Shown one piece after another: positions 7,853 through 11,491 of a stretch of 35,740 bases of DNA. The notes beneath the pieces are model-generated. The model worked only from the letters and a program-made list of their open reading frames with translations, was not told the DNA's origin and made no database searches. Made by a program: the position numbers and the translations under genes. The DNA lies in NCBI GenBank assembly GCA_007376405.1, contig VMGD01000012.1, positions 1 through 35,740 on the forward strand. Reading direction: 5' to 3'. The DNA comes from Microgenomates group bacterium Gr01-1014_7 (GTDB lineage Bacteria; Patescibacteriota; Microgenomatia; Daviesbacterales; UBA10151). The first letter of the stretch is position 1. Each line of letters begins with the position of its first letter.

Positions 7853-8668
<816 letters not shown>

Positions 8669-8693
8669 TTACATAATAAAAAGGGAGTACGCA

Positions 8694-8736
8694 AAATCAG
8701 ATAGAGGCATCCGTCTGCATTGCCCCTATCTGATTT
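8694..8736 (-). promoter_or_regulatory. Long stem-loop at the 5' end of the ATPase operon mRNA
   Basis: A 16-bp stem (AAATCAGATAGGGGCA pairing with TGCCTCTATCTGATTT, one G-U pair) encloses an 11-nt loop. It begins about 6 nt after the predicted transcription start near 8742 and ends 43 nt before the first start codon. Such a 5' stem-loop could protect the mRNA from decay or serve as an attenuator; the U-run after it is short (TTTTGCG), so a terminator is less likely. Confidence 0.7.
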
Positions 8737-8748
8737 CTTTGAGGTTAC

Positions 8749-8777
8749 AGAATACCAAATGAATAATAACTTGTCAA
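8749..8777 (-). promoter_or_regulatory. Promoter of the ATPase operon
   Basis: On the minus strand TTGACA (8777-8772), a 17-nt spacer and TATTCT (8754-8749) form a near-consensus housekeeping promoter. It points at the c-like gene and gives a leader of about 90 nt containing the stem-loop at 8694-8736. Confidence 0.75.
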
Positions 8778-8820
8778 TATCTAAATTTATATCAAAAGCC
8801 ATCAAGATAATTAACGCATA

Positions 8821-8970
8821 GCCTTAAATACAATTTACAATTTACAATTTACAATTTTCAATTAATCAAAATATATACTAACTATATCAAATAAACAATA
8901 GAAATCTTGCTTTGTGCTTGTGAAAAGGAGTGTGAAACGAATTACTAATTACTAATTTCTAATTGACCTA
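8821..8970. repeat. Heptamer-repeat arms in the ATPase-leuS gap
   Basis: The gap 8651-9037 holds the ATPase promoter and leader, then a CAATTTA tandem array (about 8828-8862, four units with drift) and an AATTACT/AATTTCT array (about 8940-8965). The second is roughly the reverse complement of the first, so the pair could fold as a large imperfect hairpin. Nothing else is recognised between them; no T-box was found before leuS. Confidence 0.6.
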
Positions 8971-9001
8971 AATAATTTCCAATGTCAATTCTAGTTTAGG
9001 A

Positions 9002-9030
9002 TTGAAGAAGACTTTAGGTTGTGATAACAT
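9002..9030 (+). promoter_or_regulatory. Leaderless promoter of leuS
   Basis: TTGAAG (9002-9007), a 17-nt spacer and TAACAT (9025-9030) end 7 nt before the ATG at 9038. Transcription would start on or next to the start codon. This argues for the 9038 start and against an upstream in-frame TTG at 9002, which is part of the -35 box. Confidence 0.6.
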
Positions 9031-9037
9031 AAATTTT

Positions 9038-11491
9038 ATGAACAAATACATTCCAAGTTCCATTGAATCCAAATGGCAAAAGAAGTGGAAAGAGGATAAA
9101 CTGTTTAGTCCGGATATGGAGGTTGCTAAAAATCCATATTACAGCCTGATGATGTTCCCTTATCCTTCTGCTGAAGGCTTGCATGTAGGCAACATGTATG
9201 CTTTTTGCGGTTCAGACATACACTCCCGCTTTAAAATGATGCAGGATCTGGATGTATTTGAACCAATTGGGCTAGATGGATTTGGTATTCATAGTGAAAA
9301 CTATGCTCTAAAGGTTAATCAACACCCTGTGGAGCTTTCGAAAATCACAGAGAAGCGATTTTATGAACAATTAATGATGATCGGTAATGCGTATGACTGG
9401 ACTAGAACAGTTGAAACCTTCAAACCCAATTATTATAAGTGGACTCAATGGTTATTTTTGCAAATGTATAATAAGGGCTTAGCTTATCGTAAAAAAGCCA
9501 GTGTAAACTGGTGCCCAAAGGATTTAACAGTACTGGCTGATGAACAGGTGATTAACGGCGCATGCGAAAGGTGCGGCAGTATCGTAGAGAAAAAATTGCT
9601 GGAACAATGGTTTTTTAAGATTACCGATTATACTGAAAGACTTTTGGGTAATTTAGACAAGCTAGATTGGTCAGAAAAGGTAAAGATTGCCCAAAGGATG
9701 TGGATAGGAAAATCTGAAGGTGTGATGCTTAAATTTAATAGCGAGGATAAAGCAGCTGAGGTAGAAGTGTTTACTACGGCATTAGATACGGTGTTTGGAG
9801 TTACCTTTCTAGTCGTCAGTCCTGAAAACCCATTGCTTCAAAAATTTATTAAAGAAGACAAAAGAGAACGTGTAGATCAGTATGTAAAAGCTGTAAAAAA
9901 GAAAACAGAATCGCAGAGAATGGAGAATAGAGAAAAAACAGGTGTTTTTACGGGTGGTTATGTTATTAATCCCCTTAACCGCGAAAAAGTTCCAGTATGG
10001 GTGGCAGACTATGTTCTAGTTGGTTATGGAACAGGAGCTGTAATGGGTGTGCCAGGACATGATGCAAGAGATCACGAGTTTGCCCAAAAATTCAGTTTGA
10101 AGGTAAAACCAGTTATTAAGCCAAAGGATGGGTTTAAAGGAGCGGATGTAGGGCAAGACGGTTTTTGGGATTATCCAGAAATCAAAAATCAATTCGCAGA
10201 AACTTCTGTACTGTTTGATTCGGCACAATACAGCGGACTAACTTCCAAAGAAGCTAAACAAAAAATGTCAGACTATATTGAAGATAACAACCTTGGTAAA
10301 AGACAAATTCAATACCATCTTAGAGATTGGTTGATTTCAAGACAAAGATATTGGGGACCTCCTATACCAATAATTTATTGCGATAAATGCGGGGTAGTTG
10401 CTGTGCCGGAAAAAGACTTACCGGTTGAATTACCCTATGTTAGTGAGTTTAGGCCCAGCGGAAAAGGGCAATCTCCGCTTGCCACAAGCGCAGATTTTTA
10501 TAATGTTAAATGCCCAAACTGCGGCGGAAAAGCTAGACGGGAAACAGACGTTTCAGATACATTTTTAGATTCTTCATGGTATTTTTTAAGGTATCCTTCG
10601 GTGGAATTTGATGATAAACCCTTTGATAAGCAAAGGGTCAAGAAATGGCTGCCGGTAGATATGTACATTGGCGGAGCAGAGCATTCTGTTTTGCATCTGC
10701 TGTATTCCAGATTCATTACCATGGTACTTCACGATTTGGGTTTACTCCAGTTTGAAGAGCCTTTTTCCAAATTTAGAGCTCATGGACTACTGATTGCCGA
10801 AGGAGCCAAGATGAGTAAATCCAAAGGAAATATTGTAAATCCTGATGATTATATCAAAGAATATGGAGCAGATACTTTAAGGACTTATTTAATGTTTTTA
10901 GGTCCTTTTTCAGAGGGAGGGGATTTTCAGGATAAGGCTATTGGCGGTAGTTATCGTTTTTTGCAAAGAGTTTGGGCACTACAGGAAAAAGTGACCGATT
11001 CGGTCATCCTGAGCGAAGCGAAGGATCTGCAAATGATGCATAAGACCATAAAGAAAGTAACAGAAGACATTGAACAGTTAAAATACAACACTGCTATTGC
11101 TGCGATGATGGAATGGCTGAATTATTTATCCAGGAAGGAAAAAGTGAGGGCTGAAGAATATAAAATATATATACTGCTGCTGGCCCCATTTGCTCCGCAT
11201 ATTACGGAAGAATTATGGTATATTATTGGTGAGTCCGGGTCAATACATAAAGAATCTTGGCCGAAGTTTGATAATAAATACTTGGAAGAAGAAGAAATTT
11301 CAATACCGGTCCAGGTAGATGGAAAGGTCCGTGATATCCTTCTGATACAAAAAGATATAATAGATAATAGAGAAGTTGTAGAAAAAATCGCAATGGAGAG
11401 TCAAAAAGTTCAAAAATTTTTACAGGGAAAATCCGTGAAAAAAACTGTGTATATACCTGGTAAAATCATTAGCTTTGTAGTTAGCAATTAG
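9038..11491 (+). CDS. leuS: Leucyl-tRNA synthetase
   Basis: 817 residues from the ATG at 9038 (MNKYIPSSIESKWQ). It charges tRNA-Leu with leucine in the cytoplasm. Class I signatures: HVGN (49-52, the HIGH motif) and KMSKS (591-595). Two Zn-binding-like pairs are visible (CPKD...CERC, and CDKC with CPNC), and the large insertion between them holds the editing domain (TALDTVFGVTFLVVSPEN and following). The FRPSGKGQSPLA segment is typical of bacterial LeuRS. Near residue 660 the short stretch VILSEAKDLQ is encoded by a dispersed repeat (11003-11028) that enters the frame without breaking it. The stop codon lies inside a small inverted repeat (11481-11507). Confidence 0.97.
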   Translation: MNKYIPSSIESKWQKKWKEDKLFSPDMEVAKNPYYSLMMFPYPSAEGLHVGNMYAFCGSDIHSRFKMMQDLDVFEPIGLDGFGIHSENYALKVNQHPVELSKITEKRFYEQLMMIGNAYDWTRTVETFKPNYYKWTQWLFLQMYNKGLAYRKKASVNWCPKDLTVLADEQVINGACERCGSIVEKKLLEQWFFKITDYTERLLGNLDKLDWSEKVKIAQRMWIGKSEGVMLKFNSEDKAAEVEVFTTALDTVFGVTFLVVSPENPLLQKFIKEDKRERVDQYVKAVKKKTESQRMENREKTGVFTGGYVINPLNREKVPVWVADYVLVGYGTGAVMGVPGHDARDHEFAQKFSLKVKPVIKPKDGFKGADVGQDGFWDYPEIKNQFAETSVLFDSAQYSGLTSKEAKQKMSDYIEDNNLGKRQIQYHLRDWLISRQRYWGPPIPIIYCDKCGVVAVPEKDLPVELPYVSEFRPSGKGQSPLATSADFYNVKCPNCGGKARRETDVSDTFLDSSWYFLRYPSVEFDDKPFDKQRVKKWLPVDMYIGGAEHSVLHLLYSRFITMVLHDLGLLQFEEPFSKFRAHGLLIAEGAKMSKSKGNIVNPDDYIKEYGADTLRTYLMFLGPFSEGGDFQDKAIGGSYRFLQRVWALQEKVTDSVILSEAKDLQMMHKTIKKVTEDIEQLKYNTAIAAMMEWLNYLSRKEKVRAEEYKIYILLLAPFAPHITEELWYIIGESGSIHKESWPKFDNKYLEEEEISIPVQVDGKVRDILLIQKDIIDNREVVEKIAMESQKVQKFLQGKSVKKTVYIPGKIISFVVSN
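11003..11028. repeat. Dispersed SEAKDL element inside leuS
   Basis: GTCATCCTGAGCGAAGCGAA and the following GGATCT form a short element read in leuS as VILSEAKDL. Near-identical inverted copies lie between rplJ and rplL (24664-24737). The same peptide-coding repeat is familiar from many unrelated bacterial genomes. Confidence 0.8.

Follow-up and report, generated by a model that had tools for sequence, protein, structure and literature searches.

A covarying RNA hairpin with a nearly invariant loop beside leuS in Daviesbacteria

In the window (the whole stretch of 35,740 nt analysed here), minus-strand positions 8736–8694 form a stem-loop that, judged by comparison with relatives, is an evolutionarily conserved RNA hairpin of Candidatus Daviesbacteria, a group of uncultured, ultra-small bacteria within the Patescibacteria to which this genome belongs. 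With a probability of roughly 0.45, we read it as a short RNA of ~45–60 nt that has a promoter and a terminator to itself and whose loop would be the recognition site for a trans-acting factor.

Results

The underlying inverted repeat (8694–8709 and 8721–8736) has 16-nt arms forming 15 Watson–Crick pairs and one imperfect pair around an 11-nt loop, and it ranks among the strongest repeats with a short loop in the 35.7-kb window. The imperfect pair is a G–U in minus-strand RNA and an A–C if the plus strand is read, so the minus strand, which is also that of the ATPase operon, gives the better hairpin; there, folding and covariation place the 5′ arm at 8736–8721, the loop at 8720–8710 and the 3′ arm at 8709–8694. 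The predicted RNA from 8742 to 8688 folds with −24.7 kcal/mol, versus −9.8 ± 2.6 kcal/mol for shuffled sequences (z = −5.86; 0 of 200 shuffles). The 16-bp stem with one wobble and an 11-nt loop, as described in an earlier sequence-only reading, is therefore present, and its description as the only long stem of the leader agrees with the fold of the longer leader, which this hairpin dominates. The loop core CAGACGG (8717–8711, minus strand) lies inside GCAGACGGA (8718–8710). No Rfam family matched these elements in searches of the window and of sister loci.

A consensus scan placed a promoter, P1, just upstream of the stem on the minus strand (8777–8749), consisting of TTGACA (8777–8772), a 17-nt spacer and TATTCT (8754–8749) preceded by TG. 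P1 ranks with the best sigma-70 matches of the first 18 kb, although promoter-like matches as a whole were not more frequent than in shuffles. The near-consensus promoter noted earlier is the same element, from which transcription is predicted to start ~6 nt before the stem. TTGAC lies 36–57 nt ahead of the stem in 21 of 21 leuS-linked copies. Behind the stem, the window carries a weak U-tract (UUUU, 8696–8693, minus strand), while 5–8 U are found in most relatives; a U-tract follows most leuS-linked copies, with little or none in L044, L045, L049 and L050. The 3′ side is T-rich in most copies, and T-richness after the stem exceeds A-richness before it in 18 of 21.

Closer to the ATPase operon, the promoter scan and the intergenic alignment gave a candidate −10 element (TATTGT, 8663–8658, minus strand) seven nt ahead of the ATG; it would belong to a second, near-leaderless promoter, P2, which lacks a good −35 in this species. 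Among 18 scanned ATPase operons, eight carry TTGAC 17–18 nt from a −10-like hexamer that ends 6–9 nt before the start codon, and seven beat shuffles at P < 0.05; the −10 hexamers were imposed by the scan, and the evidence lies in the −35 and the spacing only. The −35 of this ATPase-proximal promoter stands directly behind the U-tract of the hairpin in L002, L007 and L012. The window is atypical in degree, with four U and no good second −35, and since both U-tract and second promoter are weak here, the ATPase operon of this species may receive transcripts that read through from P1.

Relatives were collected as 31 loci recovered with the ATPase alpha protein, the closer of which mostly carry the label Candidatus Daviesbacteria, and the divergent leuS/ATPase arrangement is widespread among them. 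A stem scan of the intergenic regions, performed before any motif was imposed, returned the hairpin as the best or a top-three stem in ten loci, window included, in each case on the strand of the operon and with a TTGAC promoter shortly before it; CAGACGG was in the loop of all ten. In the same scan, 7 of 17 leuS/ATPase regions had no hairpin. In a gapless alignment of six sequences, 98.6% of the stem cells pair, compared with at most 60% when the alignment is slid, and both sides have changed in 8 of 12 stem pairs. With 30 distinct rows, all 12 stem pairs change on both sides, in an alignment that was fitted to the model, includes some reverse-strand rows and so leans towards the structure. 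While every stem pair varies, the loop CAGACGG is exact in 19 of 21 leuS-linked copies.

A covariance model, the E-values of which are rough, found one strong copy in the organism's own genome (a draft of 26 contigs, read in stretches), which rules out a genome-wide repeat; most genomes of the Daviesbacteria family also contain strong copies. The other families sampled yielded no match with the loop, and one match to a class-level model (G046, L055) was rejected as a generic hairpin lacking it. The sequence-only reading had named conservation in close relatives as the point on which it could fail, and on this point it holds. Homologous hairpins with strong stem covariation follow a TTGAC(A) promoter upstream of leuS in many relatives, and their shared place and compensatory changes confirm, at the level of comparative sequence, that the hairpin is not a chance structure.

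In relatives, the gene that consistently neighbours the hairpin is leuS, encoding leucyl-tRNA synthetase (9038–11491, plus strand). On the other side lies the first gene of the ATPase operon (7853–8650, minus strand). In seven leuS-linked copies, promoter and hairpin are retained but the ATPase operon does not follow; the genes that come next include those for a MerR-like HTH protein, an SprT-like protein and polytopic membrane proteins. Several ATPase operons have no hairpin. By this comparison, the hairpin is not an obligate ATPase leader.

Some further features of this region were recorded. The first ATPase gene encodes a c-subunit-like protein (P0001) with an extended N-terminal part that follows a signal-like start; its GRNPLA loop is present, and the second membrane helix has no acidic residue in every aligned relative. 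No subunit a was recognised in the window's ATPase operon, and this ATPase may not be a proton-driven ATP synthase. The intergenic alignment also contains conserved blocks between leuS and P1, CTTTTCACAAGC, TTGATATAGTTNGTATATATTCTGAT and TGCGGTAATTAT-NN-TGATATATTTTGATAT (window 8651–9037). A stretch TTATTTAGGTCAATTAGAAATTAGTAATTAG(A/T)AATTC is near-identical in intergenic regions of different species (window about 8938–8980, L011 and L013) and looks like a dispersed small repeat. Although the region between leuS and the operon initially looked origin-like, a replication origin there was rejected: the GC skew does not switch cleanly, and exact DnaA boxes are few.

A second copy of GCAGACGGA lies at 2504–2496 on the minus strand, in the leader of a MerR-HTH gene for a giant surface protein (ATG at 2484). 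This gene stands behind the ATPase operon, and the word in its leader is a conserved place, kept even in several relatives that lack the leuS hairpin. Here the word is not in a loop; it forms the base of a hairpin predicted to span the start codon, and it can pair across that codon with CCGTCTG (2475–2469, minus strand) in codons 4–6. This partner is found in some genomes, including the window, L002, L005 and L013; elsewhere the partner differs and the word stays. In G025, both sides of the pair have changed together, to TAGACGG and CCGTCTA. Direct repeats AATCTATG near the promoter of the gene look like operator sites.

Across six family genomes, GCAGACGGA occurs 53 times versus 16 for its reversed control, with most sites coding. 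The own genome contains 17 TCCGTCTG/CAGACGGA 8-mers; the noncoding ones are the leuS hairpin, an invariant hairpin described below and the HTH leader, and the others lie in long open frames. Going by annotation, no rRNA, tRNA or other RNA of this genome covers such a site. Since the remaining sites fall in open reading frames and none in annotated RNA, a noncoding RNA partner with the full complement is disfavoured and a protein binder is favoured.

The third noncoding site is a single-copy locus at C8:11407–11443 on the minus strand (L086), where a 37-nt hairpin, GAGCATTACTACCGCAGACGGACTCGAATAGCAATGC, carries the loop word. This sequence is found with at most three mismatches, and mostly identical, in 31 of 45 family genomes. 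The locus begins with a TTGACAAATAGT promoter and a short basic ORF of ~40–60 aa ending in ...QVKKxLxxxDQxLILMVRx, with the conserved C-terminus LILMVR(G/N), often followed by a CAGACGG hairpin with a U-tract and then by GAGCATTACTACCGCAGACGGACTCGAATAGCAATGC. By its layout, the locus resembles a structured RNA, apparently undescribed, whose leader is similar to arrest peptides. Further hairpins with the conserved loops GAGCAG and GGGCAGG follow the 37-nt hairpin (L086; L042, L043, L052, L061–L095).

In two other families of the class, the same hairpin frame occurs with AGCCTA replacing the AGACGG of Daviesbacteria (G125, L106; G219, L187; G237, L188), and in G219 and G237 it also stands behind a short basic ORF. 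The corresponding word GCAGCCTAA was searched in G125 and was found in its invariant hairpin and at two other sites, neither of which is a leuS-type hairpin. Separately, a cobalamin riboswitch was noted in the own genome (L113:1665–1818).

Discussion

The stand-alone short RNA is the best reading of these data because of the copies without an ATPase operon, the U-tracts and the separate promoters of the ATPase operons in 8 of 18 cases. RNA polymerase would start at P1, run through the strong hairpin, which sets in no more than about 10 nt downstream, and in most species be released at the U-tract, leaving an RNA of ~45–60 nt. The stem would act as a scaffold, free to drift in sequence as long as pairing is kept, which presents GCAGACGGA as a recognition site in a 9–12-nt loop. 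The loop looks like a recognition tag that is present at two other gene-control sites as well, and the recurring word is most simply read as the target of one shared trans-acting binder. One binder, probably a protein, would read the leuS hairpin, the HTH-leader word and the single-copy locus, and is considered likeliest because the word recurs both in an HTH-leader mRNA and in a structured single-copy locus. The short RNA could titrate this binder, or the bound hairpin could let polymerase read on (antitermination). However, recognition may differ among the three sites, the HTH-leader word being at the foot of a stem.

Among the alternatives, an attenuator survives best, and we regard it as doubtful. 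P1 would then drive whatever gene follows, which in the window is the ATPase operon, and a factor on the loop, or its absence, would choose between termination and read-through. A promoter-proximal hairpin with a U-tract on the operon strand is what such a device would look like, the poor P2 of the window means that P1 could matter for the ATPase operon, and the CAGACGG hairpin with U-tract directly behind the short ORF of the single-copy locus has an attenuator layout. However, the downstream gene is not conserved, and many ATPase operons are preceded by a separate promoter-like sequence that lies behind the hairpin.

The sequence-only reading had proposed a 5′ stem-loop that stabilises the ATPase mRNA or controls it through loop binding. 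Its placement on the ATPase strand, just after a conserved promoter, and the covarying stem agree with our results, and the near-invariance of the loop is compatible with control through loop binding. Stabilisation of the ATPase mRNA, in contrast, is improbable and would not be the essence of the element. In its favour are the strength of the stem, its position no more than about 10 nt from the predicted start, and the weak U-tract of this species, but a stabiliser tied to this operon is at odds with the seven genomes that keep the hairpin in front of other genes, the operons that lack it and the second promoters in 8 of 18 operons, and a pure stabiliser would need neither an invariant loop nor a U-tract.

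A base-pairing small RNA, the loop of which would pair with UCCGUCUG in codons 3–6 of the HTH surface-protein mRNA, seems just as improbable. The complement is perfect in the window, L002, L005 and L013, all four of which have the hairpin; L007 and L012, however, have the hairpin and not the complement, which is in any case already explained by pairing with the leader word in cis, and both sides of that cis pair have changed in G025. Least probable of all is an ordinary terminator or DNA palindrome with a functionless loop: despite the U-tracts behind most copies, conservation of the loop contrasts with variation in every stem pair, the G–U pairs and the presence of the U-tract on one side only point to RNA made from a single strand, and no same-strand gene lies directly upstream to be terminated.

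Compared with known systems, the hairpin appears to work most like loop-presented protein-binding hairpins and attenuators, with membership not established in any family tested. It shares a GC-containing stem and, in most copies, a U-tract near the transcript start with intrinsic (Rho-independent) terminators and promoter-proximal attenuators, but differs from them in its nearly invariant 7-nt loop core and the weak U-tract of the window, and there is no leader peptide or riboswitch aptamer at the leuS-side hairpin. Like CsrA/RsmA hairpins and CsrB-type sponges, it presents a short motif ending in GGA in a loop, common to a stand-alone RNA and an mRNA leader near a start codon. Unlike CsrA/RsmA sites, a seven-nt core is conserved here and the final A is not required (L005, L015, L047); GGG or GGU takes the place of a strict loop GGA in L005, L045, L047, L049 and L050. 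CsrA was rejected as the binder, its domain (PF02599) being found in 1 of 43 family genomes and absent from the own genome (G000), with positive search controls. The ACGG inside the loop recalls the ACGR-loop hairpins of the guanidine-II (mini-ykkC) riboswitch, from which the present element differs in being a single hairpin rather than two tandem ACGR hairpins, with a 9–12-nt loop and no adjacent guanidine genes; RF01068 had no match in the window or the sister loci. RfaH/ops-type recruitment hairpins offer a tentative parallel, being promoter-proximal with a conserved loop and preceding long operons and surface genes, but their sequence differs from that of the Daviesbacteria hairpin.

A literature search found nothing on regulatory RNAs of the Daviesbacteria group. 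It is possible, though tentative, that the three sites belong to a Daviesbacteria-specific post-transcriptional network built on one RNA word, in which a dedicated binder would read GCAGACGGA in the leuS-side RNA, in the leaders of the giant MerR-HTH genes and in the ultraconserved RNA after the short regulatory ORF, the word having switched between lineages to AGCCTA in the sister families. The reading of this genome is corrected in that the hairpin is not simply an mRNA stabiliser. It represents a sequence-defined RNA family, supported by covariation, whose loop, found at three kinds of site, is nearly invariant, and this three-site word makes the putative binder searchable by phylogenetic profile and RNA pull-down.
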